Part shown: positions 649-38,364 of the stretch, one piece after another
How the letters are laid out: each line of letters begins with the position of its first letter
Numbering within the stretch: position 1 is the stretch's first letter
Source of the DNA: Syntrophobacteraceae bacterium
Lineage (GTDB): Bacteria; Desulfobacterota; Syntrophobacteria; Syntrophobacterales; Syntrophobacteraceae
Assembly: GCA_031292215.1 (NCBI GenBank)
Contig: JARLHO010000094.1
Location: 1-39,499 of the forward strand
Reading direction: 5' to 3'
DNA: 39,499 nt
Translations under genes and position numbers: made by a program
The notes under the pieces: model-generated
Seen by the model: only the letters and a program-made list of their open reading frames with translations
What the model was told of the DNA's origin: nothing
The model's database searches: none

Positions 649-1669
649 CACCGATTCCACCGGACAAGAAGGACCTCATCGAATCCTTCCGTACCGCCGC
701 GCACCGCCAGGTCGATCGGCAGGCAGAGATGTTGAGCGCTCGCAAGGTCCCAACCCTGCGGCAAAGGAACTGACCGGCATCGGCCCCACGGACCACTGCC
801 GCCACGACACGCTCAACCGGATCGCACCCTGGCCCCCATTGAAGAGGTTATCCCGAGCGTCGAGGAAATAATCCGCCGCATCGGATCGGTCAGTTCTCCG
901 GAAGAGGAACTCCCCGTGCTCGTTGTCGCCGGCGACGGCGCTCACACCCCGACCAGGGCAAAGGGAAAGCGCAACAGCCGACGTGGACCGGGCAGCAAGT
1001 GGCGGGAAGTCAAGGGCTTCCGCATCTATCTACTGGACGGCAAGGAACGCATCGTCCAGATAGCCGGTTGGCACCAGTTCCAGGACGCAGCCCAATTCAC
1101 TGTGGACTTGGGGGTGGTGGCCGCCCGTATCCCGCTCCAGCGGGTACGAATCGCTCTGTTGGGGGATGGCGCCGAGTGGTTATGGAACGCGATGACCCAG
1201 TGCTTCCCCAAGGCTCGGGAAGTGCTCGACTATATCCACTGCGCCGAACACGTCCACAAGGTTGCCAAGCTCCAATACGGCGACACCTTGGACGCACAGC
1301 AGTGGGCCGAAGCAACCATCACGAGATTTCATGGATCGCACAGGTCCTGCCATCGGCGGCCTCAAACGCATGCAACCCATGGAGGCCGAAAAAGAGATCG
1401 GAAAGCTGATCAACTACCTCACGACCCACCAACACCGACTCGCTTACCAGGACTGCAAGAATACCGGCTTGCCCATCGGCAGCGGCGGGATCGAATCAGC
1501 CAACAAACACATCTGTCACGTTCGGCTGAAGCGTTCCGGGGCGTGGTGGCTGGAAGAAAATGGCAATACCATGCTCAGATTGCGCTGTGCACTCTACAAC
1601 GATACCTTCGATACGGTGTTAAACAGCTATATTGCGAAAAAGCGCCTTAGCTCGCGCAAAGGCGGGTAA
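645..1669 (+). pseudogene. ISKra4-type transposase, multiply frameshifted
   Basis: The transposase is spread over three frames. The N-terminus begins MTPIPPDKKDLIESF at 645. The central part runs from about 838 (IEEVIPSVEEIIRRIG) through LVVAGDGAHTPTRAKGKR, WREVKGFRIYLLDGKERIV, RIALLGDGAEWLWNAMTQCF and VLDYIHCAEHVHKVAKLQYG to about 1330. After a further frameshift, the C-terminus reads GLKRMQPMEAEKEIGKLI, then GLPIGSGGIESANKHICHV and RLKRSGAWWLEENGNTMLRL, ending at a stop at 1667-1669. These blocks match transposases I know as the ISKra4 family, with GDGA and the late GSGGIESAN carrying likely catalytic acidic residues. At least two frame changes after the start (773-838 and about 1330) make it inactive; a programmed frameshift could explain one but not both. 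I could not define the terminal inverted repeats of the element. Confidence 0.75.
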
Positions 1670-2048: not shown

Positions 2049-2464
2049 TGCAGGAGGGATCGGCCATGAAATCACCACCGACAACTCGGCTGATTGCGTC
2101 AGGGAAAGGGTATCATTGAGATTGACGCTCACACCCTCATGCACTCACCAGGGTTTGACCATTCCAGGGAATCAAGATTCCGGCTTCAAATTCTTCAACC
2201 ACCCGTGCGGGACGCGTTCGGGATATGAAACCCGCGCCGGCATAATGACGCTGCCGGCCAAGATTCTCCGTCAAATGATTGACTAAATCCTGGGATCTTC
2301 CCGGCCGCACCGAAGGCCGCGGACAGTAAGCCCGCAGGGTTAAAAGACATACGTCATGGCCGGGATGACGCATGTAAGGGTCCTGTCGTTTTCACTCACA
2401 TCCAATCACCCCTTAAATCCATGGCACGATGTTTGCCTGAAATCAGGCATCGGCTATTATTCCT
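2049..2464 (+). repeat. Long inverted repeat, left copy (~415 bp)
   Basis: This segment recurs in inverted orientation at 12407-12820, with high identity by eye (roughly 85-90%, a few small indels). Shared landmarks include CCGACAACTCGGCTGATTGC, the stretch TTGACCATTCCAGGGAATCA, and GGTTAAAAGACATACGTCAT near 2339. Similarity ends at CTATTATTCCTT (about 2464), 77 bases before the epimerase start. I see no transposase or convincing open reading frame inside it. It therefore looks like a duplicated upstream or leader region, not an insertion sequence. Confidence 0.85.
2433..2460 (+). promoter_or_regulatory. Candidate promoter with palindrome for the sugar cassette
   Basis: TTGCCT (2433-2438) and TATTAT (2455-2460) are 16 bases apart and resemble -35 and -10 boxes. 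The spacer holds a short palindrome, GCCTGA-AA-TCAGGC (2435-2448). The -10-like box is kept in the right repeat copy but the palindrome is not. Inferred from pattern only. Confidence 0.4.
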
Positions 2465-2540
2465 TGGCTGTGCTAAACAAAGGGTCGCACTTTATCTCCA
2501 AAATAATCTGCTGGAAAAAGAAGCGAAAGGACCAGCTTTG

Positions 2541-3596
2541 ATGAATAACAGCGACGAACATATGCTCGCCCGGGACTTGGAGCATATTCTTCTAAACACA
2601 CAAAACATCTGGGACGATCTTGCCGGAAAAGACATTTTCATCACCGGCGGGACCGGGTTTTACGGCTGCTGGCTCTTGGAGAGCCTAATCCATGCAAATC
2701 GGCGTCTCAACTTGAATACCCGGATTACGGTCCTGACCCGGAACCCCGATGCTTTTGCTAAAAAAGCCCCGCATCTGGCCCATAATCCATCGGTTCGCCT
2801 TATTGCCGGCGATGTGCGCTCCTTTGATTTTCCACCCGGATCTTTTTCCCACATCATTCATGCGGCAACCGACACCGACAGCGGGTTCTACTCCGATCCC
2901 ATCGAGATTATTAAAACCATTGTGGACGGGACGAGACACACACTTGAGTTCGCCTGTCACTGCGGGGCGAAGAAGTTTCTTTTCACAAGCTCAGGCGCGG
3001 TTTATGGGAAGCAGCCTTACGAACTGAGCCATCTTCCCGAGGAGTACATGGGGGGACCCAATCCGGTCGATACGTCGGCAGCATATGCTGAAGCCAAAAG
3101 AATGGCCGAGCAGTTATGCGTTCTCTACAGTACGCGGCATGATATCGCAGTAAAGATCGCCCGCGGGTTTGCTTTCGTAGGACCGTATATGGCTGAAAAC
3201 GCACATTTTGCAATAATGAACTTTATTCGTGACGGAGTTTCGGGGCGGAAGATACAGATAAGGGGGGATGGGACCCCCTGCCGCTCATACCTCTACAGCG
3301 CCGACCTCGCTATATGGCTATGGACGATTCTGGTACGAGGGGAAAGTCGCAGGCCCTACAATGTGGGCTCGGAAAAGGGTCTCAGCATAGCGGAACTGGC
3401 CAACCTGGTGGCTGAAGCCCTGCCGGATTCCCCAGGGGTCGAGATTTTAGGCCGCCCCAATCCGGGACAGCCCCGGGAAAGATATGTCCCTTCAACTTTT
3501 AGAGCACATTCGGCCCTTGGACTTGAAGAGCACATAAGCCTGTTGGATTCTATTCAGCGAACATCTAGATGGTTATCGAAAAAGCTCTCAGGCTGA
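2541..3596 (+). CDS. NAD-dependent epimerase/dehydratase (extended SDR)
   Basis: A 351-residue protein of the extended short-chain dehydrogenase family that modifies nucleotide-activated sugars in the cytoplasm. The Rossmann motif GGTGFYG is at residues 36-42, the FTSSGAVYG strand with the active-site serine at about 148-156, and the catalytic pair Y182-x3-K186 in AAYAEAKRMAEQ. The C-terminal half (RSYLYSADLAIWLW, YNVGSEKGLSIAELA) is typical of UDP/GDP/dTDP-sugar epimerases and dehydratases. The exact sugar cannot be read from sequence. I chose the ATG at 2541, with AAAGGA upstream; an in-frame ATG at 2421 would add 40 residues coded partly by the repeat. It is the first gene after the left inverted repeat. 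Fragments of a paralogous copy lie inverted at 12115-12406. FkbM follows 175 bases later, so the genes probably form one operon. Confidence 0.85.
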   Translation: MNNSDEHMLARDLEHILLNTQNIWDDLAGKDIFITGGTGFYGCWLLESLIHANRRLNLNTRITVLTRNPDAFAKKAPHLAHNPSVRLIAGDVRSFDFPPGSFSHIIHAATDTDSGFYSDPIEIIKTIVDGTRHTLEFACHCGAKKFLFTSSGAVYGKQPYELSHLPEEYMGGPNPVDTSAAYAEAKRMAEQLCVLYSTRHDIAVKIARGFAFVGPYMAENAHFAIMNFIRDGVSGRKIQIRGDGTPCRSYLYSADLAIWLWTILVRGESRRPYNVGSEKGLSIAELANLVAEALPDSPGVEILGRPNPGQPRERYVPSTFRAHSALGLEEHISLLDSIQRTSRWLSKKLSG

Positions 3597-3771
3597 AATC
3601 GGCTAAGATGATAACATTTCTCTGTGGTGAACGCTTGCGATCGATGTGGGCCGGTTAATGGAACGCTGGACTACCCACTGGATAAAGCCATGAGCGTCAT
3701 AATGGCCATTTTTGAAGAGGCCGCTCAAAAGCGCTGAGGAAATGACCTTGGTGTAGAAAAGGTTCTTGTTC

Positions 3772-5010
3772 ATGCCAATCATTGCCGGTTCGTTAAAAGA
3801 TGAGCTGATCCGCATGCTTGAAGAAGACGAAACAGAAGCAAAGAAAAGGGAGCGATCTGAGCTTGATAGGCTAGCGGCCCCGCTGGGTTCGTCGATTGTT
3901 CTGTTCGGCGCGGGAGGCCTCGGCCAGATCACGCTCCGCGGCCTGCGCAAATGCGGCATCGAACCCGTTGCATTCGTTGATAATAATCGGGCCCTTTGGG
4001 ACAAAGCGGTAGCCGGAGTGAAAGTCATGTCGCCGGAGAGTGCCGCGGCGGCCTACGGCCGCAAGGCAGCCTTCGTTGTCACCATATGGAGGGCGCAGGG
4101 AGGCTACCGGTTCAGCGACTTGGTAAAGCAGCTCAATGCCTTGGGATGCGAACGAATACTGTCGTTTGGATACCTTTTCTGGAAGTATGCCGAAGCCTTT
4201 CTACCCTATTACGCCATCGACCTGCCCCACAAGACACTTCAACAGTCTGAATCGATTTTGGATGCTTTCGAAATCTGGGGCGACGAGCAATCCCGTCTGG
4301 AATTCGTTTCGCAGGTAAAATGGCGGCTGACACTCGATTTTGACTGCCTCGGAGTGCCTGTTGACCAAGGCCAGTACTTTCCAGACGACCTTTTTGCGCT
4401 TTGCGACGATGAAATATTCATTGATTGCGGCGCTTTTGACGGCGATACCGTGGTGGATTTCATTGACCGCCGCCAAAGCCGCTTTCAAAAGATCGTTGCA
4501 TTTGAGCCGGACCCGCGAAACAAAGACGCGCTGAACGAGTGCATCGCGAACATGCCTCCGGGGATCGGACAAAAAATCGAGGTACATCCTTTGGGTCTTG
4601 GCGCCAGGAGGGAGATGGCAGGCTTTGATGCCGGCGGCTCAGCGGGATCGTCTCTAAATGAGAGCGGGGAAACTCAAATTGAAATAGCTTCGCTGGATGA
4701 GGTTATGGGAACGCTCAAGCCGACTTACATCAAAATGGACATCGAAGGCGCCGAACCCGATGCCCTTACGGGCTCAGCCACCATTATCAGGAAATATCGT
4801 CCCATTCTTGCATTCAGCGTCTATCACCAGTTTGATCACCTCTGGAAGTTACCTCTGCTGGTTCGCTCTTTTTACGACGGATACAGGTTTTTTTTGCGGG
4901 CACACGGACAGGAAGGCTGGGATCTCGTCTGCTATGCGGTTCCAGCCGGCCGACTGGCAGAAACAATCTTGCCCCGAGTCGGTAAGACTGAGGAGTTATT
5001 CGAATTATGA
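3772..5010 (+). CDS. FkbM-family methyltransferase with N-terminal nucleotide-binding-like domain
   Basis: About 412 residues in two parts. Residues ~40-150 start with SIVLFGAGGLGQ and continue with VAFVDNNRALW, a Rossmann-like module seen in sugar-modifying proteins. Residues ~210-400 are an FkbM SAM-dependent methyltransferase: IDCGAFDGDT (about 217-226, SAM motif I), AFEPDP (243-248), the SLDEVMG segment and IKMDIEGAEPDAL (about 320-332). FkbM enzymes usually O-methylate sugars or other hydroxyls, so methylation of a glycan or sugar nucleotide is the likely role; the substrate is inferred from context. The start is uncertain: ATG 3772 has AAAAGG upstream, and a TTG at 3766 is also in frame. 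Its TGA overlaps the ATG of the next gene by four bases (5007-5010), so the two are coupled. Confidence 0.85.
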   Translation: MPIIAGSLKDELIRMLEEDETEAKKRERSELDRLAAPLGSSIVLFGAGGLGQITLRGLRKCGIEPVAFVDNNRALWDKAVAGVKVMSPESAAAAYGRKAAFVVTIWRAQGGYRFSDLVKQLNALGCERILSFGYLFWKYAEAFLPYYAIDLPHKTLQQSESILDAFEIWGDEQSRLEFVSQVKWRLTLDFDCLGVPVDQGQYFPDDLFALCDDEIFIDCGAFDGDTVVDFIDRRQSRFQKIVAFEPDPRNKDALNECIANMPPGIGQKIEVHPLGLGARREMAGFDAGGSAGSSLNESGETQIEIASLDEVMGTLKPTYIKMDIEGAEPDALTGSATIIRKYRPILAFSVYHQFDHLWKLPLLVRSFYDGYRFFLRAHGQEGWDLVCYAVPAGRLAETILPRVGKTEELFEL

Positions 5011-8000
5011 GCAGCCCTGTACCCGGAACAGTGATCTTGTTCGGCCCTGTTTATCAGAGAAGCGGTTATGGCGTGGCGGCCCGGTCATTCGTCATGGGTT
5101 TTTACCAAGCGGGGCTCAGGATCAAAGTCGTACCCGTGGATTGCAACAGCGGGGCCGAACCAGGCCTCGATGACTACGATCACCACCTCATGAGGTCCCT
5201 CGAGCTTACTGAGGTCATTTCTCCGGTAACCGCCATATTCTGTTATGTCCCCACTTATGTGTTCCCAAAGCTGTCACTGCCCGAGCCTAATGTCAGGATC
5301 ATGCTCACCACCTTTGCAAGCAATGCGAACTCTCCATTGCCGCCTCCCAGACTCATTTTTATATGTAATCGGATGGATCAGGTTTGGCTTGCAAACGAGA
5401 TCGAAAATCGAAGTTGGATCCGCGCCGGCCTCAATCCCGAATTGGTTCAGCCGATCATCTGGCCCCATATGTGGGTGGAAAACCGGGTGCTTCCGCCTGT
5501 GTATCTCCAGCAAAGGACACCGGACAGAAAGTTTCGATTTCTGCACATTTCGCTGTTGCTGCCCCGGCGGCGGCTGGACGCACTGATCGAGGCGTTTTTC
5601 GAAGAATTCCGAGACGAACCCTCAGCCGAGCTTTATCTGAAAATCAGTTATCCAACTTGGCACCCCATTCCCGAAAAACCCCAAAAGGATTTGCGAGCGT
5701 TAATTGATGGGCTGGTCGGCCGAACCGGCTCGAAAGCTTCAATCATCCTTGACGATAGCACCGATGATACCAGAAGCGAAATCGCCATGCTTTATGATAG
5801 CTGTGATTTCTATGTTTCTACCGATACAACTAATACCGCTCCAGTAAGCGAAGCCATTCTCAGGCTCAGGCCAGCTATTATCACGGACGGCTGGGGGGTG
5901 GAGTTGCCCGATGAACTGCTCGTAATTCCAAATAGTGAGCGGCAGATAACGATTACCCCCGGGATGGCCGAGTATATGCCACAATACAGGGACACCTCTT
6001 TTCCCGCGTTAGAGTTACCGGTCATTCGCCGTGTGCTTCGGCAGGCCTTCGATATGAACTCTAAAGAACGGGAATGGAGAGCGCGTGCAGGGTTGGAATT
6101 CATCCGGGCGCGGTACTCGTTCCAGGTAGCAATTCCTGGTGCGGTAGCCGCAATAACTAAAGCTTGGGAAAAGAAATCGGCAGTAGACAAAAAAGAACAG
6201 GATATCAGTGCAACCAGGTCGTCGGTTCAGGGAAAAACTGAGAAAACCGACAAAGGCAAGTATTCGATCCTGTGGTCTGGACTTCAGCTCGCATACGGAT
6301 CTCTTCCCCGGACAAACCGAAATATATGCTTACGCCTCATGGAGCGCGGGCATACAGTGTCCATAATGCCGTCATATGGTCCGTTTTGGGTGGAAGAACT
6401 CAGCCTGTCAGATGACCCCGACTACTGCAAACTTGCCGATAAATTCTATGACCCCCTTCCCTCTGTTCCGAATGTATACGTTACCCATGCATGGGACCCA
6501 GTCCTTCAACCCAGCCCCAAAAGCCACTTTGTTTTTATGAGCTGCTGGAAATACGGCTCCATTCCGGTTGACTGGCTTGATCCTTTGCGTAAGATGGTCG
6601 ATGAAATCTGGGTCCCGAGCACATATGTGCGCAATGGCTTCATCCAAAGCGGAGTACCAGCCGAACAGGTACAGGTTATCCCATTGGGCGTTGACGTGAC
6701 CCGCTTCAATCCTTTAGCTCAACCTTATCCGCTCAAAACGAGAAAAAGATTCAAGTTCCTTTTTGTAGGCGAGACTTATAGACGCAAAGGCTTCGACCTC
6801 GTGCTCAAAGCCTTTCGCGAAAACTTTAAGAAAAGCGATGACGTATGCCTCGTTGTAAAGGACATCGACAGCTCGGAGTTTTACCGCCACAAGCCGGGGG
6901 CCCACGCAATAAAGAGTTGCCGGTTGCATGCCGATCATCCGGAAATTGAATACCTCGATTTCATGTTAAAAGATGAAGAAATGCCGGGGTTGTATACGGC
7001 CTGCGACTGCCTCGTAGCCCCCTCAAAGGCAAGCAGTTTTGGTCTGGCCATAGCCGAGGCGATGGCATGCGGTCTGCCCGTGATTGTGACGCAAGCCGGG
7101 CCGGCGCTGGATTTTTGCAATATCGAAAATGCCTATTTTCTCCCCGCCCGCCAGACAAACGAAGGCCAAAGACAGGTGGGCGCCTGGAAAACGGCCCACC
7201 CACCCACATTTTTTGAGCTGGACCCCATAAGAATGGGACAGGTAATGCGGTATGTGGTGAAAAATCCCGATCTGGCAAAACGCAAGGGCACGGCCGGCGC
7301 CAAACACATCAGGGAGAATTTCGACTGGAACCATTCTCTGGATGCGATTGAGCACCGCATTAGGCTGTTGTGTAAAAAACCAATTCGACACATGAACATA
7401 ACCGAGGCGAAAGTTCCCGCGACCCCTCAGAAGGTTCCGGAAAACGGTAATACAAATATATCCGCCGTGCCCGGGGGGGCGCTCGGTTCAGGCGGCACAC
7501 TCGTTTGGGTAGCTCCCTTTTATAATCGAAGCGGGTACGGGGTTGGGGCGCGCGCTTTTGTGACGGCTCTGCACGAGGCGGGAGTTCGAATCAGGACAAT
7601 ACCCGTGGATGGAAGTGAACCGGGGATCGACGACTGTAATCTCGAGCTGATCGGGTCCCTGGAAAAGACACCAATAGAGCCTCCCGTCACGGCCATTTTC
7701 TCCCATGTACCGCACCAACTCTGGGTTGATATGGTACTACCCCGGCCGCACAAAAAAATTCTTGCAACAACATTCGATTCCAGCGCCCAAGGCAATGTTC
7801 CTCCTCAGAGTTGGATTGAGATCTGTAAGGAGATGGACCAAGTCTGGCTCATGAGTGAAAAGGAGAAGAAGGCTTTTCTTAAAGCGGGTCTGCCAGAGGA
7901 AAAGTTGAGTGTAGTGACGTGGCCCCATCACTGGATGAGCAACCCATATATTCCTTTGCCGAGCCCACCTGCCCGGTTGGGGGGACGTCCCTTCAGGTTC

Positions 8001-9815
8001 TTAAGCATAGCGATGTTTCTTCCCAGAAGGCGCTGGAACATACTTTTGCGGGCGTACTTCGAAGAGTTCTCTCAAAACGAGAATGTGCAACTCTATTTGA
8101 AGGTTAATTATCCCTCCTGGCATCCGGACCCTGGCCAGCCTCGAGTCGATCTTCTGGAGCTTGTGGAAAGCCTCAGGCGGACGACCAATTCAAAAGCATC
8201 TGTCATTATAGACGACAATCTGGGGACTCGGTCGGAACTGGTAAACATTGTAGATGGCTGCGACGTTTACGTTTCAACTGACGTCACCCTGACCGCGCCC
8301 GTTGGCGAGGCGATGATGAGGCAGAGGTTGGCGATTATCGTGGACGGGTGGGGATCGTCTCTGCCCGACGAGCAACTGATAGTCATTGCGGCCGATCCCA
8401 ACGCAAAAGAGCCATTTACTCCAGATATGCTCAAATATCAGCCCCATCACAAAGGCAGTTCCATGCCGGTGCTAAACGTAGCGGACGTTCGCCGCGCACT
8501 CAGGCGCGCCTTCGATATGCCGATCGAGGAGCGGCAAAACAGAAGCAAGACGGCATTTTCTCAATTGGGCGTCGTTTATGATTCGAAACGAAGCGTGGCC
8601 GATGCGATGACACAAATGGCGGCCGTTTGGAGGGGCGGCACTCAACCAGGAATCACTTTGCCGGTTCGAAGGCCGAAAAGGATTATCTGGGAAGGCTCAC
8701 AATTTGTAAATAATTCGGCTGCACACATAAACAGGGAACTTTGCCATCAGCTTCTTGTGTCTGGAGAGCAGCTTTCCATAATTCCCTTTGAGCCCAGCGA
8801 GTTTGCGCCGGAAGTCGATCCGCGATTTAGTTTGCTCGCCAACAGGTTTTATGCCCCGCTGGCAGGAGCGCCTGACGTGCACGTTCGCCATCACTTGTCG
8901 CCCATTTTCACCCCTCCTCCACAAGGCCACTGGGTCATGGTCCATTCATGGGAATACGGTCGACTTCCTGAAGGCTGGATTGAGCCAATGACAAATTTGG
9001 TTGACGAAATATGGGTACCCGGCAGGCATGTTCAAAAAGCCTGTATCGCAAGCGGAATCCCGGCGGATCGAGTTATTGTGGTGCCCAACGGGGTAAATCC
9101 GGATATGTTCAAACCTATTGACCGAAAACGTCACAAGAAATTCAGGTTCCTTTTTACAGGGGGGGCTTTGTGGCGAAAAGGAATCGACATCCTTCTCCGC
9201 GCCTACTTGGAGGCATTTACAAAAAACGATAACGCTATCCTGATAGTAAAGGATTCTCCTTCGGAAACCCACCGACCGGACATTGCCGCAGCGAGATTGA
9301 TAACCGATATTCGCAAAAACGGGAACTCAGCGGAAATCATTCATTACACCCAGGTTCTGGACGTGAACCAAAGGCTGGCCCTCTATCATGCCTGTGACTG
9401 CGTAGTCCACCCTTACCGGGCCGAGGGTTTGGGCTTGTCTGTAATGGAGTCAATGGCTTGCGGCATCCCGGTAATCACAACGACTGGAGGGGCTTCCGAC
9501 GATTTTTGTAGTCCGGAAAACGCTTATCTGATTCCTTCCCGGCGTGTCGATTTCGCTCCTTATGATATACCGCTCGCAGGCGGTGCGGGCTGGGTACTTG
9601 AACCCGATGTGGAGGCATTGACGTTTTTGCTGCGAGAGGTCTATAAAAATAGAGATTCAGCCCAAGCCAAGGCCGCACGGGCTTCCGAATTTATAAGATC
9701 GCATTATTCGTGGGAAAGTATCGCACGGAAAGTCAGATCTCAGGTTGAGGTGTTAATTAGGCGTCCGGTTCTTAGAGAAAACAAAACTGAAAAACGACCC
9801 CTTGAACAGGAATGA
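5007..9815 (+). CDS. Giant four-module glycosyltransferase (internal duplication)
   Basis: A single 1602-residue protein built as A-B-A'-B'. Module A (residues ~1-390) begins near GPVYQRSGYGVAARSF and contains TAPVSEAILRLRPAIITDGWG-like sequence (shown here shortened: TAPVSEAIL, ITDGWG). Module B (~415-790) contains VDEIWVPSTYVRNGF, KFLFVGETYRRKGFDLVLKA and the GT4 signature SSFGLAIAEAMACGLPV near 675. A' begins near 829 (APFYNRSGYGVGARAF) and has TAPVGEAMM and IVDGWG. B' (~1220-1580) has VDEIWVPGRHVQKAC, RFLFTGGALWRKGIDILLRA and GLGLSVMESMACGIPV near 1473. The halves are clearly homologous, so the gene arose by tandem duplication of a two-module ancestor. B and B' keep the retaining GT4 E-x7-E region and should transfer sugars; A and A' are more divergent. 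Role inferred: assembly of a repeating glycan in the cytoplasm. No membrane segment or signal peptide is evident. Confidence 0.85.
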   Translation: MSSPVPGTVILFGPVYQRSGYGVAARSFVMGFYQAGLRIKVVPVDCNSGAEPGLDDYDHHLMRSLELTEVISPVTAIFCYVPTYVFPKLSLPEPNVRIMLTTFASNANSPLPPPRLIFICNRMDQVWLANEIENRSWIRAGLNPELVQPIIWPHMWVENRVLPPVYLQQRTPDRKFRFLHISLLLPRRRLDALIEAFFEEFRDEPSAELYLKISYPTWHPIPEKPQKDLRALIDGLVGRTGSKASIILDDSTDDTRSEIAMLYDSCDFYVSTDTTNTAPVSEAILRLRPAIITDGWGVELPDELLVIPNSERQITITPGMAEYMPQYRDTSFPALELPVIRRVLRQAFDMNSKEREWRARAGLEFIRARYSFQVAIPGAVAAITKAWEKKSAVDKKEQDISATRSSVQGKTEKTDKGKYSILWSGLQLAYGSLPRTNRNICLRLMERGHTVSIMPSYGPFWVEELSLSDDPDYCKLADKFYDPLPSVPNVYVTHAWDPVLQPSPKSHFVFMSCWKYGSIPVDWLDPLRKMVDEIWVPSTYVRNGFIQSGVPAEQVQVIPLGVDVTRFNPLAQPYPLKTRKRFKFLFVGETYRRKGFDLVLKAFRENFKKSDDVCLVVKDIDSSEFYRHKPGAHAIKSCRLHADHPEIEYLDFMLKDEEMPGLYTACDCLVAPSKASSFGLAIAEAMACGLPVIVTQAGPALDFCNIENAYFLPARQTNEGQRQVGAWKTAHPPTFFELDPIRMGQVMRYVVKNPDLAKRKGTAGAKHIRENFDWNHSLDAIEHRIRLLCKKPIRHMNITEAKVPATPQKVPENGNTNISAVPGGALGSGGTLVWVAPFYNRSGYGVGARAFVTALHEAGVRIRTIPVDGSEPGIDDCNLELIGSLEKTPIEPPVTAIFSHVPHQLWVDMVLPRPHKKILATTFDSSAQGNVPPQSWIEICKEMDQVWLMSEKEKKAFLKAGLPEEKLSVVTWPHHWMSNPYIPLPSPPARLGGRPFRFLSIAMFLPRRRWNILLRAYFEEFSQNENVQLYLKVNYPSWHPDPGQPRVDLLELVESLRRTTNSKASVIIDDNLGTRSELVNIVDGCDVYVSTDVTLTAPVGEAMMRQRLAIIVDGWGSSLPDEQLIVIAADPNAKEPFTPDMLKYQPHHKGSSMPVLNVADVRRALRRAFDMPIEERQNRSKTAFSQLGVVYDSKRSVADAMTQMAAVWRGGTQPGITLPVRRPKRIIWEGSQFVNNSAAHINRELCHQLLVSGEQLSIIPFEPSEFAPEVDPRFSLLANRFYAPLAGAPDVHVRHHLSPIFTPPPQGHWVMVHSWEYGRLPEGWIEPMTNLVDEIWVPGRHVQKACIASGIPADRVIVVPNGVNPDMFKPIDRKRHKKFRFLFTGGALWRKGIDILLRAYLEAFTKNDNAILIVKDSPSETHRPDIAAARLITDIRKNGNSAEIIHYTQVLDVNQRLALYHACDCVVHPYRAEGLGLSVMESMACGIPVITTTGGASDDFCSPENAYLIPSRRVDFAPYDIPLAGGAGWVLEPDVEALTFLLREVYKNRDSAQAKAARASEFIRSHYSWESIARKVRSQVEVLIRRPVLRENKTEKRPLEQE

Positions 9816-9819
9816 GTTG

Positions 9820-10968
9820 ATGAGATGCTCTCGAAACTGCCCGATTTGTTCGGCTGAAAGCAAAGAACTAGTATTTAAAAATAAGATGGCCGATCTTGGC
9901 AGCTTCGATCTGAGCTATGATGTCGTGATTTGCATGAAATGCGGCTTTGTATTCGCGGATAATATCATAGACGAGCAATCACTCCACGAGTATTACAGAA
10001 CTTATTCGAAATATGACATCGTAAGCTCGATAGAAGCGGTCCCGCTACATACCAGACAGTCGGCTGCCAATTGCGCAGCGATTGTCAGCAGCCATCTCCC
10101 CCCGGAAACCAGAGTCATCGACATTGGAAGCTCCATAGGAGTTTTTTTAAATGAGCTGAAGCAAACGGGTTTTTCGAATCTCTACGGCATCGACCCCGCG
10201 CCCGCCTGCTCAAAGATAGCCAGGACACTTTTCGATATCGAGGTGGATTGTGGATTTTTGACCAGCAAGGTCGATCTTCACGACTACGACCTGATTGTAT
10301 TATCAAACATTCTAGAGCATATAACCGATTTGGGATCTTTTCTAGCCATTATATCGTCGACCTTGAAAAAAGGTGCACACCTTTTTATCGAGGTACCCGC
10401 CGGAGATATGTTCTTCAAGGAAACCACCGAGTACATGGGGGAGTTCAGCATCGAACATATCAACTATTTCGGCGTGAAGTCGCTGGAAAGGCTCTTGGGG
10501 CAACATGGGTTCCACATGACCAATTCTTCATACGCAACCTACGGGAAGGGGATTATCACCATCGATTTCCTGTGCGTCTTTGACGGTATAAGCAGGGACG
10601 ACGGGCAGCGCGATTCCAACCTCAAAGAGAGCATGGTGCGCTATGTTGAAACCAACAGATCGATTATTCGCAGGATCGATCAAGTCCTGGGTTGTCTTAG
10701 CGACAAGATCGCAATCTATGGAGCAGGAAGCCATACAGCGAGATTGCTCAAACAAAGCGACTTACAATCAAAGACGATAGTTGCAGTCGTCGACAATAAT
10801 CCTAATCTCATCGGAAAAACAATAGATGCGGCGATCATCGAAGATGCAAGGGAATTTGGCTGCCTTCCAGATGTTCCTGTGCTGATATCGTCATACAACT
10901 ATCAGGAAGAAATCAGGAAGATTCTGATCGATAAGGGATTTGAGGAAACAATAGTAACAGTCTATTAA
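9820..10968 (+). CDS. Class I SAM methyltransferase, sugar C-methyltransferase-like
   Basis: About 382 residues. The N-terminus has a zinc-binding-like cysteine set (CSRNCPIC at residues 3-10, then CMKC at 38-41). The SAM-binding motif I is RVIDIGSSIGVFLNEL (about 98-113), followed by LYGIDPAP and LIVLSNILEHI. The C-terminal domain starts with KIAIYGAGSHTARLLKQ and VVAVVDNNPNLIGKTID. This three-part layout is that of NDP-sugar C-methyltransferases (NovU/TylCIII type), though a different acceptor is possible. I chose ATG 9820, preceded by CAGGAATGA; a TTG at 9802 would overlap the glycosyltransferase by 14 bases. It is the last plus-strand gene of the cassette. The C-terminal GAG-VDNN module parallels the N-terminal module of the FkbM protein. 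Confidence 0.8.
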   Translation: MRCSRNCPICSAESKELVFKNKMADLGSFDLSYDVVICMKCGFVFADNIIDEQSLHEYYRTYSKYDIVSSIEAVPLHTRQSAANCAAIVSSHLPPETRVIDIGSSIGVFLNELKQTGFSNLYGIDPAPACSKIARTLFDIEVDCGFLTSKVDLHDYDLIVLSNILEHITDLGSFLAIISSTLKKGAHLFIEVPAGDMFFKETTEYMGEFSIEHINYFGVKSLERLLGQHGFHMTNSSYATYGKGIITIDFLCVFDGISRDDGQRDSNLKESMVRYVETNRSIIRRIDQVLGCLSDKIAIYGAGSHTARLLKQSDLQSKTIVAVVDNNPNLIGKTIDAAIIEDAREFGCLPDVPVLISSYNYQEEIRKILIDKGFEETIVTVY

Positions 10969-10974
10969 TGGGTG

Positions 10975-11130
10975 ACTTTCCAGCAGGGCTGAGCAGATGA
11001 AATAGATTTTAACTCCGGGCCCTTTTTCCATGATCAGAGAGTTCGGAGCTGTTTTGGCGGATACGTTAAAGCTGTGCCCACCCTCATGCAACCAATGTTC
11101 GATCCAGGCGAGGACGGGAACGATGCCTAC
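10975..11130 (-). other. Minus-strand coding-like fragment between convergent genes
   Basis: The gap between the methyltransferase and the sulfotransferase holds a minus-strand frame reading LAWIEHWLHEGGHSFNVSA, then PNSLIMEKGPGVKIYFIC. It has protein-like composition and could be the C-terminal tail of a lost gene. I do not recognise the family, and there is no start codon with a ribosome binding site. Confidence 0.2.
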
Positions 11131-11172
11131 GAGGCTATATCGCAGACATAAATGTCAAAAGGCTGCGCAATC

Positions 11173-11967
11173 TCAATATCCCATCAATTTATTAATGTTT
11201 TCATCGCCAATAAGAATATTTTTGGAAAACCACTGTTCAGCAAATGGCGACCAGTAGTCCTCATATTTTGAACTTTTGCCCTCTGATTTCGTTACTGTCT
11301 TTTCCCCAAGCGCTTTGTTTAGAATAGACTCCGGGTCAGTCTTGCGCCCGATTTGCAGAAAATCACAAAGAGATTGAAGTGCCTGCCTGGAAATAGATTT
11401 ATCACTATGAATCAAGTCTTCATGCCTGATTTTTATAATCTCCATATTGGGATGAGGGTTCCGGATAACGTATTCCCAACATGCCACTTGCTTCATCTGG
11501 GTGAGAGGTCCACAGGGCTCGGCATAGTTTAGCAGATAATTTATGAATTTGGCCTTGGGGTCGGAAATCCTTATCCAGGGGTGTTCGGATTCTTTGATCC
11601 TGGTGGACTGGATCATGAATCTCATGTGTGAAACTAGACAATGCTTGAGATCCCGCACAAGAAAGATAATTTTGAATGAATCGCTCAGAGGGCCTTTGAC
11701 TTCCGGGGTTGGCGGCAAGTGACCAACTGCGAATTCCCCGGGGTTGATTCTGTCGAGGACGTCCTGAAATGTCATTTTGTAGAAAACGATTTCCGGCGAT
11801 GTTCGATGAATCTCCTTTGGTACGAACCTGAAGTGATAAAGTCCAATAAATTTATCGTCATAACGAACGTGAGTATACGATTCGGCCAATCCTAAACCTT
11901 TGAGAATCTCATAAACAAAGTAGGTGCCCGCTTTCGGGATTGTGACGAGCATAACTCGATTTTTCAT
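11173..11967 (-). CDS. Sulfotransferase-domain protein
   Basis: 264 residues with the hallmarks of PAPS-dependent sulfotransferases. IPKAGTYFVYEIL near residues 10-22 is the 5'-phosphosulfate loop (PKxGTxF). FLVRDLKHCLVSHMRF near 102-117 is the 3'-phosphate-binding strand, with R105-D106 and S113. A C-terminal KSEGKSSKYEDYW region corresponds to the loop that usually closes over PAPS. The enzyme should move sulfate from PAPS to a hydroxyl or amine; given its neighbours, a glycan is the likely acceptor (inference). ATG 11967 has GTGGAG upstream. The gene is on the minus strand, convergent with the rest of the cassette, and starts downstream of the right inverted repeat. If that repeat carries a promoter, it would drive this gene. 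Confidence 0.82.
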   Translation of the reverse strand: MKNRVMLVTIPKAGTYFVYEILKGLGLAESYTHVRYDDKFIGLYHFRFVPKEIHRTSPEIVFYKMTFQDVLDRINPGEFAVGHLPPTPEVKGPLSDSFKIIFLVRDLKHCLVSHMRFMIQSTRIKESEHPWIRISDPKAKFINYLLNYAEPCGPLTQMKQVACWEYVIRNPHPNMEIIKIRHEDLIHSDKSISRQALQSLCDFLQIGRKTDPESILNKALGEKTVTKSEGKSSKYEDYWSPFAEQWFSKNILIGDENINKLMGY

Positions 11968-12114
11968 TTTAAAGCTCCACTCACTTGCATTTTATTTGCT
12001 TGCAAGGGTCTATGAATGATTGATTTTCCCCGTATCCACCGATAACAAGCCCGATTGGAAATTCCGGGTTGAACGTGTTGCTTCGAGAATTCCGGGAGGT
12101 TTTTGTAATATCGC

Positions 12115-12406
12115 CAACGTATCGACCGGATTGGGTCCTCCCCCCCATGTACTCCTCCTTACAATTACCCACACATGCGCCCACTTACCCCTTAGCGGAG
12201 ACTCCCGGGAAAGGGGCTTGGCCCGATCGCCCCCCTCTTTTGCAAGGGGGGGTTGGGGGGATTTACTCTCCAGCCGCTTGCAATGACGCGCATGGACCGG
12301 CTGGGCTCGCTCGCCCCCCTTATTTGCAACTTTGCAAAAGGAGATAGGTGGGCGTATGTGTGGGATCGGAGTAGAACCCGCTGTCGGTGTCGGTTGCCGC
12401 ATGAAT
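12115..12406 (-). pseudogene. Relic of an epimerase gene paralogous to 2541-3596, split by a MITE
   Basis: Two short minus-strand blocks match the epimerase gene in collinear order. 12361-12406 is the inverse of 2856-2901 (ATTCATGCGGCAACCGACAC and onward), essentially identical. 12115-12156 is the inverse of about 3040-3078 (GAGTACATGG, CCCAATCCGGTCGATACG) with a 3-base insertion. The ~140 bases between them in the intact gene are replaced by MITE copy 1, and bases corresponding to 2465-2855 are deleted. The right MITE junction shares TGGG with the gene, as expected for a microhomology deletion. Sequence between 12010 and 12114 continues open but is not recognisable. Confidence 0.75.
12159..12364. 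mobile_element. MITE copy 1 (right end truncated)
   Basis: It starts with the terminal sequence TTACAATTACCCACACATGC and ends with GTGGGCGTATGTGTGGG, where the last outer bases of the right terminus are lost into the epimerase relic. The interior matches copies at 21904-22291 and 37908-38123, including ACTCTCCAGCCGCTTGCAAT and a GC-rich CCCCCC/GGGGGG hairpin. It encodes no protein, so it would need a transposase supplied in trans. Confidence 0.8.
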
Positions 12407-12820
12407 AAGGAATAATAGCCGATACGTAATTTTAGCAAACATCGTGCCATGGATTTAAGGGGTGATTGGATGTGAGTGAAAATTACAGGACCCTTACATG
12501 CGTTATCCCGGCCATGACGTATGTCTTTTAACCCTGCGGGCTTACTGTCCGTGGCCTTCGGTGCGGCCGGGAAAATCCCCGGATTCGCTCAATCGTTTGA
12601 CAGCGAATCTTGGTCGGCAGCGTCATTATGCCGACTCCGGTTTCATATCCCGAACGCGTCCGCACAGGTGGTTGAAGAATTTGAAGCCGGAATCTTGATT
12701 CCCTGGAATGGTCAAACCTTGGTGAGTACATGAGGGTGTGAGCGTCCATCTCAATGATACCCTTCCTTTACCTGACGCAATCAGCCGAGTTGTCGGTGTG
12801 GCTTTCATGCCTGATCCTGC
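12407..12820 (-). repeat. Long inverted repeat, right copy (~415 bp)
   Basis: Inverse of 2049-2464, read on the minus strand. It ends at the same AAGGAATAATAG boundary, where it joins the epimerase relic. Relative to the left copy, the promoter-spacer palindrome is missing (TTGCTAAAATTACGTATC in place of TTGCCTGAAATCAGGCATC). It points toward the sulfotransferase. Confidence 0.85.
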
Positions 12821-13704: not shown

Positions 13705-13750
13705 CGTCCATCACGCCCGCCGCATCCAGACAAACCCCACCGGCGCCGCC
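13705..13750 (+). repeat. 46-bp direct repeat, right copy
   Basis: Second copy of 1833-1878 in the same orientation, about five mismatches by eye; similarity stops on both sides. Confidence 0.65.
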
Positions 13751-13894
13751 CAAACGCCGCCGGCCCTCCGGGTTGGCGCAGGTCGCAAAGATCGCTTGAC
13801 GCCCCAGAGCAACCGTGACTTGTCCTCCTGCGCGATTAGCGCGTTGCGCCTCCTGCCCCCTCTCCTCTCTTTGGCGCGTAGCGGGAGAAAGCAA

Positions 13895-20092: not shown

Positions 20093-20482
20093 TTACGCCA
20101 TGGCCACTCGGCGTTTGGCGCCGACGAACCTGCGTTTTACGCTTTCCAGGGTCTCCTGGCAGTGTATGCAAAGCATGGCGGTGGGCCGAGCCTTCAGCCG
20201 ACCGATTCCAATGGAAGTCGAGCAAAGACAGCAGACCCCGAATTCCCCGTCATCGATGCGTTGGATAGCGGAGCGGATTTCTTGCACAAGCTGTTGGGTG
20301 CGGTGCTGAATGGCGTTAACGAGCGATTGATCGCAATGATGAGACGCCATGTCCGCCTCATCCATCGGGTCGTTTGCTCCGTGATCGCAAAACCGTGAGT
20401 ACGGGGTATATCCGCTGTTTAGAAGTCCTCTCATGTGGCTTTCCAAAAGTTCCCTGAAATCTCTCAAAGTGTGTTCGTCCAT
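20093..20482 (-). CDS. DksA/TraR-family zinc-finger protein
   Basis: 129 residues, with AGGAAAAGG upstream of the ATG at 20482. The N-terminal coiled coil holds a DEADMAS motif (residues 41-47) similar to the DxxDxA tip that DksA inserts in the RNA polymerase secondary channel. The C-terminal zinc finger is C84-x2-C87 and C105-x2-C108 (VCCLCSTSIGIGRL, LCIHCQE). The final ~20 residues are basic. It should act with RNA polymerase in stress or ppGpp-linked control, though many such paralogues are untested. It is divergent from the 20723 gene. Confidence 0.8.
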   Translation of the reverse strand: MDEHTLRDFRELLESHMRGLLNSGYTPYSRFCDHGANDPMDEADMASHHCDQSLVNAIQHRTQQLVQEIRSAIQRIDDGEFGVCCLCSTSIGIGRLKARPTAMLCIHCQETLESVKRRFVGAKRRVAMA

Positions 20483-20722
20483 CCTTTTCCTTTCCTGCTT
20501 TGGAAGATTTTCACTCCGCCTTTTTTTAAAAACCAGAATGCCCTGGTTTTGTTACGCCAGTATGTCGGCAACATGGCTATCTCATTCTTTTATTCAGTCC
20601 GCAGCGCCCCTTTTCTCCTCAACCCGGGTGCTCCAGGCTTTGAGGTCTCTGGCACGATGGTTGCTCTCACAACGGTTGCCATACAGAGGCTTACAAGAAC
20701 TTTTTCCAACCCGGGGAAAAAA

Positions 20723-21829
20723 ATGAAACCTTGCCCAGTCTCCTCTGCGGACTTGGCGCAAACGGTTGACTCACAGCCTGGAGCGCCCTATCGACTCGGC
20801 TGTCAACGCTTTGACAAAGCGTTTCAAACCGCCCTCGAGGCAGGGACGCCGGCCAATTGCTTGCTGAAGCCGGCAAACTGTACACCGCTGAATGGGCCCG
20901 CGGTCGCCCCCCGGCCCTTTTTTTCTTCAAAATCTTCGGGAGACGTTGCAAAAACGACGACCCTGGCCCGGGCGGCCTACGGGAAGCGCCTTGGGTCAGC
21001 ACCGGCCGAGCAGCCGCCCACGAGCGACTGGCAAAAATATAAGGAGGACCAACTGCTTCGAAATCCGGGGGGACGGGACTACACCGATCAGGGGATCGCC
21101 CGTACCCCGGGAGGAAAAACCGTTTCGGGGCTCATCGCCGGGGACCTGTCAGGCGCGGTCGCAAACATCGGAAATTTTTTCGCAAATATATTCAAGGGGA
21201 GCAAGACCCTCTACAGGGATGAGAAAAATCAAATTCGGCAGCATCATCAGACCGGGCTTCTCGGGACGATGGCCAATTTTTTCCGCGACTTCGCATCCGC
21301 ATTAAGCTTGGGTGCTTATCATCCCGGTTCCCCAAAGCCGGTTCAAGGCGCACAGAACCGGCTACTTTTTTCCGCATCCAAGCTCAAGGACGCCTTTCTG
21401 GGCGACATAGCCACCGGGGTCCCCGCGAGCGTCAACCATATGGCGCAAAACGCGATCCTGGCCGGCTGGCGCCTGGTCGAGGTGCTGCCGGACGCAGCCA
21501 TCGGGGGCTTTGGGCCGGGCCGCAAACTCACCACAACGATATTTGACAACGGACAGGTCGCCGTCGAATACCTAACCGATATTATTCCCTCAGGCGATGC
21601 CTGGCTAAGGGTCCATGGGGCCGACTGGAAAAAACTCACCCCTCCCGTGCTCTATAATCTCAAGATGCCCGAACACTTCAACGGGGACGCCCGTTGGAAA
21701 TATATACGGAACACACCCTTTAGAAAAACCATTGAAACCATCGGTTCCCTGCTGGCCGACGGGCTGGCCATCGGTTTTCTCGGACAAACCGGGGGATCGA
21801 GTGACCACCGAAGCCAAATCGAGTACTGA
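20723..21829 (+). CDS. Unrecognised 368-residue protein
   Basis: I do not recognise this protein. The frame is open from 20435, but I favour ATG 20723, preceded by GGGG; ATGs at 20573 and 20657 are alternatives. The first ~170 residues are low in conserved features (CLLKPANCTPLNGP). From about residue 140 the sequence becomes structured: SGLIAGDLSGAVANIGNFF, FRDFASALSLGAYH, VEYLTDIIPSGDAWLRVHG, WKYIRNTPFRKTIETIGSLL. A few short hydrophobic helices are visible, but no signal peptide. It stands between a DksA-like gene and MITE copy 2 with no co-directional partner. Confidence 0.6.
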   Translation: MKPCPVSSADLAQTVDSQPGAPYRLGCQRFDKAFQTALEAGTPANCLLKPANCTPLNGPAVAPRPFFSSKSSGDVAKTTTLARAAYGKRLGSAPAEQPPTSDWQKYKEDQLLRNPGGRDYTDQGIARTPGGKTVSGLIAGDLSGAVANIGNFFANIFKGSKTLYRDEKNQIRQHHQTGLLGTMANFFRDFASALSLGAYHPGSPKPVQGAQNRLLFSASKLKDAFLGDIATGVPASVNHMAQNAILAGWRLVEVLPDAAIGGFGPGRKLTTTIFDNGQVAVEYLTDIIPSGDAWLRVHGADWKKLTPPVLYNLKMPEHFNGDARWKYIRNTPFRKTIETIGSLLADGLAIGFLGQTGGSSDHRSQIEY

Positions 21830-21903
21830 GATGGGCCGCACCACCTGCGGGAGCTCTTCCCGGCGTGCGGCGAAATCCGGAAAAAGACTTCCCCCTTTCA
21901 GAC

Positions 21904-22291
21904 CTGACAATTACCCACACATGCGCCCACTTACCCCTTAGCGGAGACTCCCGATAAGGGGCTTGGCCCGATCGCCCCCCTTTTTTGCAAAGGGGGGTTG
22001 GGGGGATTTACTCTCCAGCCGCTTGCAATGACGCGCATGGACCGGCTGGGCTCGCTCGCCCCCCCCCTCTTGTGAAACTTCAGCGGCGTGTCGCCCCAGA
22101 CGGGTTGGCAAGCCCCGACCTGCCCGACTGGCTGCGCCGACGGCAGCTCGGACGGCAGTCCGCACCGCCTGCCGGGTGATGTATTCACCGAAGTTTCATC
22201 TCGTTCAAACCGCATCCAAGGAGGCGGAGGCCCCCCTTATTTGCAACTTTGCAAAAGGAGATAGGTGGGCGTATGTGTGGGTAATTGTAAG
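21904..22291. mobile_element. MITE copy 2, with 9-bp target duplication and nested insert
   Basis: The element runs from CTGACAATTACCCACACATG to GTGTGGGTAATTGTAAG, giving ~24-bp terminal inverted repeats. It is flanked by the exact 9-bp direct repeat CTTTCAGAC (21895-21903 and 22292-22300), a clear target-site duplication. Its interior matches the other copies but is interrupted near 22061-22230. Confidence 0.88.
22061..22230. mobile_element. Nested insertion inside MITE copy 2
   Basis: About 170 bases absent from the other two MITE copies split the C-tract of this one. Near its ends are TGAAACTTC (22073-22081) and GAAGTTTCA (22190-22198), a perfect 9-bp inverted repeat. This suggests a second small non-coding element; its exact ends are unclear because of the flanking C-runs. 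Confidence 0.5.
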
Positions 22292-22539: not shown

Positions 22540-22612
22540 GCGGGTGTAGCTCAGTTGGTAGAGCACAAGCTTCCCAAGCTTGGGGTCGCGGGTTCGAATC
22601 CCGTTGCCCGCT
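22540..22612 (+). tRNA. tRNA-Gly (anticodon CCC)
   Basis: The cloverleaf is complete: acceptor GCGGGTG with TGCCCGC, D-arm with AGCTCAGTTGGTAGAGC, anticodon stem CAAGC/GCTTG around loop TTCCCAA (anticodon CCC), and T-arm GGTTCGAATCC. The discriminator is T, usual for glycine. The 3' CCA is not encoded (TTCA follows), so it must be added enzymatically. It sits upstream of rimP, comparable to metY ahead of rimP-nusA in E. coli. Confidence 0.95.
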
Positions 22613-37907: not shown

Positions 37908-38123
37908 GGACAATTACCCACACATGCGCCCACTTACCCCTTAGCGGAGACTCCCGGGAAAGGGGCTTGGCCTGATCGCCCCCCTTTTTTGCAAAGAGGG
38001 GTTGGGGGGATTTACTCTCCAGCCGCTTGCAATGACGCGCATGGACCGGCGGGGCTCGCTCGCCCCCCTTATTTGCGACTTTGCAAAAGGAGATAGGTGG
38101 GCGCATGTGTGGGTAATTGTAAG
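37908..38123. mobile_element. MITE copy 3
   Basis: Uninterrupted ~215-bp copy. It opens with ACAATTACCCACACATGCGC and closes with GCGCATGTGTGGGTAATTGT, near-perfect terminal inverted repeats. The interior has ACTCTCCAGCCGCTTGCAAT and the C/G-tract hairpin. No target duplication is visible, suggesting later rearrangement of a flank. Confidence 0.85.
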
Positions 38124-38364
38124 GCAAATATTGAGGGGGACGGGCTGAGCAAGGAATACCAGGTTAAAAAAATGTTCAGGGATGCCAGGGCCGGTATGAT
38201 AGGCAAGGAAAATAATGCTCTGTCTCTTGTTGGAGCCTCGCTTCTGGCCCGCGAGACGCACTGTTGACGTGAAGTCGATGTTGATTCCGGACCGGTAGGC
38301 AACTGATCAGTCACGCTGGTCCAGGATTGCATCCACTTGTCAGGAGAGGGGACACCCTTTATAT
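38124..38364. other. No gene seen
   Basis: Spacer between MITE copy 3 and the IS91 relic's terminator; a minus-strand frame continues through it without recognisable content. Confidence 0.3.

Follow-up and report, generated by a model that had tools for sequence, protein, structure and literature searches.

Genes and features of the locus

The window, meaning the whole analysed stretch of 39,499 nucleotides from a Syntrophobacteraceae bacterium, carries a five-gene cassette between two inverted repeat arms. On the plus strand, the cassette begins with an NAD-dependent epimerase/dehydratase of the SDR type (2541–3596; Pfam PF01370, E = 3e-34), for which 2541 is the likely start. It is followed by an FkbM-type methyltransferase (3766–5010; Pfam PF05050, TIGR01444), a protein of 1602 residues (5007–9815; Pfam) composed of two fused GT4 glycosyltransferase halves with 38.5% mutual identity across 800 columns, and a SAM-dependent methyltransferase (9802–10968; Pfam PF13489). 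Convergent with this operon is an inward-facing sulfotransferase on the minus strand (11173–11967; Pfam PF00685, 36.6 bits), which matched no NCBIfam family and, at E 1e-15 among 11 genus members, was found in its own genome only.

None of the five cassette proteins is a transposase, in agreement with the initial annotation. An ISKra4-transposase-like fragment (916–1650, plus strand; NCBIfam NF033572) is present only outside the cassette, about 400 bp from the left arm; its score of 57.4 bits is under the family threshold of 205, and it covered profile positions 185–322 of 422, matched no Pfam family and occurs at one place in the assembly. A plasmid origin of the left flank was dismissed, the plasmid collection giving no match.

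Extent, identity and copy number of the arms

Base-by-base comparison confirmed the inverted pair, with the left arm at 2057–2465 (plus strand) and the right arm at 12407–12817 (minus strand) being identical in 377 of 413 columns (91%), including 6 gap columns; self-comparison of the window gave E = 9e-160 for the pair. Exact runs of 52 (the longest), 48 and 47 bp are common to both arms, and a further run of 46 bp was found beyond them. A search of the bacterium's own assembly for further copies (E 0.001) revealed the arms at these two places only, unlike an ordinary insertion sequence. Each arm had been placed on the 5' side of an inward gene; this holds for the left arm, which is directly upstream of the epimerase on the plus strand and represents the leader of its operon, while the right arm is separated from the sulfotransferase by approximately 440 bp.

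Searching 96 other genomes for the leader, with four candidates scored per genome, yielded a match to one 64-bp stretch and nothing else. Within the left arm, a phage-portal-like fragment (2184–2259, plus strand) is 78% identical in DNA over 64 bp to contig C290 of genome G002, and 16 of 25 residues are identical to a protein of that contig matching PHROG 113 (portal). The arm ORFs had no hit in PHROG and the fragment no match in the phage collection; a phage origin of the arms was dropped and the 25-residue piece is recorded as a side note. An Rfam scan of the window at the gathering score revealed no structured RNA in the leader, the sole family detected being a tRNA at 22540.

Epimerase relics beside the right arm

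Homology between the two sides, initially thought to end at 2464 and 12407, was found to continue inside the epimerase coding sequence. Two minus-strand relics account for this. The one at 12361–12406 matches 2856–2901 in 46 of 46 positions (tblastn residues 105–120, 15 of 16 identical, E = 1e-6), and that at 12113–12157 matches 3039–3079 in 40 of 45 (residues 169–180, 9 of 12, E = 0.01); a third tblastn row (E = 0.46) did not follow the order of the others and was attributed to chance. Arm and relics form three collinear blocks in one order and one orientation. The right copy lacks 2466–2855, including the likely epimerase start codon, and is unable to make the protein.

The DNA between right arm and sulfotransferase consists of these relics, a miniature inverted-repeat element (MITE; 12157–12364, plus strand) and about 145 bp of other DNA. 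The MITE, which is truncated at its right end, occurs at no fewer than 40 places in the assembly with at least 180 bp at 91% identity or more (40 of 263 candidates scored), also elsewhere on the same contig; terminal repeats were present in 25 of 30 loci and apparent direct duplications were seen at the ends. In its terminal repeats, end duplications and high copy number it resembles known MITEs. Here, however, the MITE is an insertion in the relic, and the arms themselves are not MITEs.

Since homology extends into the epimerase gene with deletions and an inserted MITE, the right arm is regarded as a decayed inverted copy. The right side is taken to be the broken one because the left epimerase gene is complete, encoding a protein that can be aligned with five relatives (43–55% identity).

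Sigma-54-type boxes in the arms

Each arm contains an exact inward-facing sigma-54-type box, TGGCACG-ATGT-TTGC, in which the -24 GG and -12 GC elements are properly spaced. In the left arm (2422–2436, plus strand) 119 bp separate it from the downstream ATG at 2541, and in the right arm (12435–12449, minus strand) it lies 482 bp upstream of the sulfotransferase start. A stricter pattern, requiring A or T after TTGC, matched the right box and missed the left one. Allowing up to one mismatch, the window holds four such boxes as compared with a mean of 0.88 in shuffles, four being reached in 1 of 100; one of the two arm boxes counted here is a copy of the other.

Sigma-70-like sites between 1700 and 13500 numbered 6 against 10.2 in shuffles; a weak one (2433–2460, 9/12) overlaps the left box, and another (12016–11989, 9/12) directly precedes the sulfotransferase. 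A palindrome at 2347–2375 upstream of the left box was dropped as an enhancer candidate, 28 of 200 shuffles being equally good; its core pattern occurs at four places in the genome and a control pattern at fewer. Inspection of the arms by eye revealed no clear PrsR site.

The genome encodes the corresponding machinery, with one match to RpoN (PF04552) and one PrsR family activator above the TIGR02915 cut-off (612.9 versus 502.6 bits; 99 matches in all), whereas none of 14 control genomes had a PrsR above the cut-off. For the pattern TGGCACNNNNNTTGC, 24 occurrences were counted genome-wide as compared with 5 for its reversed control; for the stricter pattern, the counts were 6 and 1. Six of the 24 boxes lie inside a longer ORF, and six have no start codon of a 100-codon ORF 20–320 bp downstream. 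Genes behind the remaining boxes are mixed and mostly not glycan genes, so a purely PEP-CTERM-type regulon is not claimed. One exact box was found 101 bp ahead of a gene whose product has a PEP-CTERM motif (above the Pfam and NCBIfam cut-offs) and another 115 bp ahead of a glucose-1-phosphate cytidylyltransferase; a one-mismatch box lies 130 bp ahead of a gene of no known family, itself upstream of the glycosyltransferase homologue on contig C101. Besides the PEP-CTERM gene, similar boxes are in this way associated with two additional sets of glycan genes.

The proposal that the arms act as upstream regulatory DNA thus gained support. Given the boxes, rpoN, a PrsR-type activator and similar boxes elsewhere, the left arm is plausibly the upstream regulatory region of the epimerase operon, and we consider it more likely than not that it is a working sigma-54 promoter; the arm boxes could also be chance matches. 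RNA polymerase carrying RpoN, aided by an enhancer-binding activator that may be the PrsR family protein, would open the left box and most likely transcribe the epimerase, FkbM, glycosyltransferase and methyltransferase genes from it. The sulfotransferase is faced by an identical box in the right arm, a candidate promoter for that gene from which transcription may or may not persist.

Related epimerase loci

Related loci numbered 84, comprising the best 79 of 338 named contigs and five others, and many of them end at contig ends. They were searched for a frame, defined as inverted repeats of at least 80 bp and at least 75% identity enclosing the epimerase. No such frame was found in any of these loci, many being cut in this way, and none gave a tblastn match to the sulfotransferase. 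The sole inverted pair among the 84 (1386–1552 and 3544–3689 of locus L126) leaves the epimerase, at 10001, outside. A frame that is designed or recurs in relatives is not supported, in view of this result and of the right arm being a broken copy of the left arm and gene start.

The relatives' epimerases sit inside larger clusters. They have no such leader (four candidates scored per genome) and, in the loci examined, no good box before them; six loci were scanned for boxes, of which four (L051–L054) had none. One relative (G006) has a box with one mismatch in front of the homologous cytidylyltransferase in its epimerase cluster, at a distance of 167 bp.

Origin of the arms

Partial inverted gene duplication followed by pseudogene decay is a known general process, and we are confident that the arms are the leader and start of one epimerase gene and its decayed inverted copy, left by an old local duplication. 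An inverted copy of about 1.0 kb (2057 to about 3080), spanning the leader and the beginning of the epimerase gene, would have been placed beyond the other end of the operon. The copy would then have lost 2466–2855 and about 2902–3038 and received the MITE, whose end was presumably trimmed at a shared four-base CCCA, so that the remnants now give the appearance of an inverted repeat frame. As in other partial inverted duplications, a collinear broken copy of leader and 5' end is seen, with deletions and an inserted mobile element; unlike the usual case, the leader copy retains a promoter box that looks intact and is now directed at a different gene. This implies that a striking framed cassette can arise from a single partial gene duplication and its decay.

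The same remains would also be left by two separately acquired operons joined tail to tail, with little of the epimerase surviving in the second one (leader, epimerase, sulfotransferase), and the sulfotransferase does follow the relic in the same direction. This origin is improbable, considering that the leader has no third place in the assembly, that the 96 other genomes match just one 64-bp stretch of it among four candidates scored per genome, that all 46 bases of one gene relic agree with the left gene, and that this sulfotransferase is near the epimerase in none of the 84 loci (best 79 of 338 contigs plus five others). Least probable of all is that the arms represent termini of a mobile element such as a composite transposon: despite their inversion and the ISKra4-like fragment near the left arm, they occur at two places only in the assembly, the homologous stretch contains epimerase gene sequence and no transposase was found among the cassette genes, and the insertion sequence and composite transposon assignments were rejected. 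Inverted repeats around glycan genes are also known from invertible promoters and cassettes serving phase variation, and the orientation of the arms together with exact runs of 46 to 52 bp makes homologous recombination between them conceivable. Phase variation by flipping of the 9.9-kb cassette is nevertheless very improbable, as the arms are merely 91% alike and a comparable frame is absent from the same 84 loci. With an identical inward box in each arm, both gene sets would still follow an equivalent promoter after a flip; judged by this anatomy, an inversion changing which gene is expressed is unlikely.

A regulatory pair kept by selection, in which the copied sigma-54 promoter reads the sulfotransferase through relic and MITE, is possible though unlikely. 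The exact inward box in both arms is in line with it, as is the block at 2320–2436, a chosen block with 4 differences in 117 columns versus 32 across the remaining 296 (Fisher p = 0.019). After correction for the choice of window, p rose to 0.17, and a selection footprint around the box is for this reason not claimed. Further points against a selected pair are the 482 bp with relic and MITE between box and sulfotransferase start, the weak sigma-70-like site directly before that gene, and the lack of epimerase and sulfotransferase together in any of the 84 loci (best 79 of 338 contigs plus five others).

Relation to known glycan regulation

Titles in the literature on invertible exopolysaccharide repeats, sigma-54 polysaccharide promoters and MITEs included none on such a locus, although a published description may exist. 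Overall, the locus is an ordinary one with one useful regulatory lead, namely that some glycan genes and a PEP-CTERM gene in this genome have sigma-54-type boxes in common. Sigma-54-dependent promoters belong to the PEP-CTERM/exopolysaccharide system, as described in the sections drawn on from Haft et al. (2006; PMC1569441) and PMC9850573. In common with that description are the -24(GG)/-12(GC) box, rpoN, the PrsR family activator and a PEP-CTERM gene preceded by such a box; compared with the same sections, the box here precedes a glycan operon, with no activator site identified in the arms. The common boxes would link sugar decoration to a control so far described, in those sections (PMC1569441, PMC9850573), for PEP-CTERM genes.

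It is rather doubtful that the inverted leader copy recruited the sulfotransferase into the regulon of the glycan operon, the decayed copy serving as a borrowed enhancer and promoter; if so, sulfation would be co-induced with glycan assembly. Were the right copy still working, duplication would clearly have led to promoter capture here.

Extent of the inverted pair

A self-comparison of the window revealed an inverted pair at 2057-2465 (plus strand) and 12407-12817 (minus strand) with 377 of 413 columns identical (E = 9e-160), which is real and far beyond chance. The pair lies where the initial annotation had placed its inward-facing repeats, and in the own assembly (4,885,943 bases in 177 contigs), whose contig C26 the window spans completely, it was matched at just these two places. 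The homology extended past the arms, which the initial annotation had missed; on the right side, minus strand, homology carried on with a block identical to 2856-2901 (46 of 46 bases) and, past a 208-bp element, with a second block matching 3039-3079 (40 of 45 bases). Both blocks are epimerase coding sequence, in which tblastn recovered residues 105-120 at E = 1e-6 and residues 169-180 at E = 0.01; a third tblastn row (E = 0.46) was out of order and was discarded as chance. The right copy lacks 2466-2855, including the likely start codon (2541). The left epimerase gene (2541-3596) is intact, its protein being 43-55% identical to those of five relatives in an alignment. Since the homology enters the epimerase coding sequence and the left gene is intact, the right side appears from its sequence to be a broken copy of the epimerase leader and gene start. 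A 47-bp direct repeat (91% identical) was seen outside both arms, at 1833-1879 and 13705-13751.

The 208-bp element inside the right-hand relic (12157-12364) is a high-copy MITE. It was matched at no fewer than 84 places across the own assembly, and at least 40 of these matches reach 180 bp with an identity of 91% or higher, these counts being lower bounds with 40 of 263 candidates scored. The MITE measures about 218 bp, with ends resembling CTTACAATTACCCAC, and copies are present in the window at 12157-12364, 21903-22291 and 37910-38124 and in the extracted loci L004-L032. Both terminal repeats were found in 25 of 30 MITE loci examined, where the element length was 214-221 bp, and were not seen in L003 (the window copy), L017, L021, L022 and L023. 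Inspection by eye showed apparent short direct duplications of about 8-9 bp at the ends in many of the 25 loci. The window copy at 12157-12364 has lost its last bases, and its junction has CCCA in common with the epimerase end. Several copies apparently sit within CCCCTTTGAAA-like sequences, again as judged by eye.

Sigma-54-type boxes

Each arm carries an inward-facing TGGCACG-ATGT-TTGC, an exact sigma-54-type box. The left box precedes the likely epimerase start by 119 bp; the right box lies 482 bp ahead of the sulfotransferase gene (11173-11967, minus strand). Allowing up to one mismatch, the pattern gave 4 matches in the window versus an average of 0.88 over 100 shuffles, of which a single one reached 4, the two arm boxes not being independent in this count. 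Conservation around the box in the arms was not significant after correction, and no clear PrsR-type site was found there by eye. A third exact box in the window, at 20650-20664, falls within an ORF of 464 aa (20435-21829) or directly ahead of it; this ORF gave no Pfam, PHROG or NCBIfam match.

The left arm is most likely the promoter region that belongs to the operon itself, with the right arm most likely a decayed inverted duplicate of it. The proposal that the arms act as upstream regulatory DNA is plausible for the left arm, and the right arm is reassigned as the probable decayed duplicate. Flipping of the cassette by homologous recombination is conceivable, the arms sharing exact stretches that are 52, 48 and 47 bp long; it would hardly constitute a switch, because each gene set would stay behind an equivalent inward box. 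With the right arm read as a decayed duplicate, its box may still serve the sulfotransferase as a candidate promoter; alternatively, that gene may be driven by a weak sigma-70-like site immediately ahead of it.

In the own genome, TGGCACNNNNNTTGC was found 24 times and its reversed control 5 times; for TGGCACGNNNNTTGCW, a pattern that the left box does not fit, the corresponding counts were 6 and 1. Counted without a control, 18 of the 24 boxes, among them the relic itself (L149), had the ATG of an ORF of at least 100 codons 20-320 bp downstream and 6 did not; 6 of the 24, likewise without a control, lay inside a longer ORF. Exact boxes were found 101 bp before a protein whose PEP-CTERM motif scores above the Pfam and NCBIfam cut-offs (locus L141, 1133-1669) and 115 bp before a glucose-1-phosphate cytidylyltransferase (TIGR02623, 368.7 versus a cut-off of 300.25 bits; locus L142, 642-1409, minus strand), hinting at a possible common surface-glycan regulon. 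One-mismatch boxes were located 130 bp before a gene on contig C101 of the own genome, upstream of a glycosyltransferase homologue and without a known family in the family search, and 167 bp before the cytidylyltransferase of the relative G006, in one cluster with its epimerase. Four of the six loci scanned for boxes (L051-L054) yielded none.

The own genome contains rpoN and, among 99 matches to the PrsR family, one member over the cut-off; none of 14 control genomes had a member above it. Haft et al. 2006 (PMC1569441) describe the -24 GG/-12 GC form of the sigma-54 box and report that PEP-CTERM genes are preceded by such boxes and by a predicted PrsR site, and PMC9850573 reports rpoN-dependent transcription of one PEP-CTERM gene.

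Related loci and genomes

Epimerase relatives were compared in 84 loci, many of them short (the best 79 of 338 named contigs plus five from further genomes). The view of the arms as a functional frame of the cassette found no counterpart in this set: no sulfotransferase match was obtained by tblastn at E 0.01 (0/84), and the single locus with inverted repeats at least 80 bp long did not have them around the epimerase. The other cassette genes are also rare in these loci: at E 1e-6 the fused glycosyltransferase was matched in 6 of the 84, FkbM in 21 and the methyltransferase in 26. At E 1e-15 the remaining 10 members of the genus gave no sulfotransferase match, and an epimerase match at E 1e-40 was present in 6 of 97 genomes, the own included. 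With four candidates scored per genome, the only counterpart of the leader among relatives was a single 64-bp stretch in the genome G002, where it falls inside a phage-portal-like gene. The left arm contains a portal-like phage fragment at 2184-2259 (25 residues, 16/25 identical to a G002 protein matching PHROG 113).

In G006 the cluster around the epimerase (locus L050, contig C129) is larger and includes genes for a glucose-1-phosphate cytidylyltransferase, a NeuB-family protein and a TPP enzyme, unlike that of the window epimerase, whose neighbours are methyltransferases and a glycosyltransferase only. That glycosyltransferase (5007-9812) is 1602 aa long and consists of two fused GT4 halves, 38.5% identical to each other. 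In L050 and in L052 its homologue aligns as a single unit; L051 contains one complete unit plus a split one, and the homologue on C101 comprises a unit and a further half.
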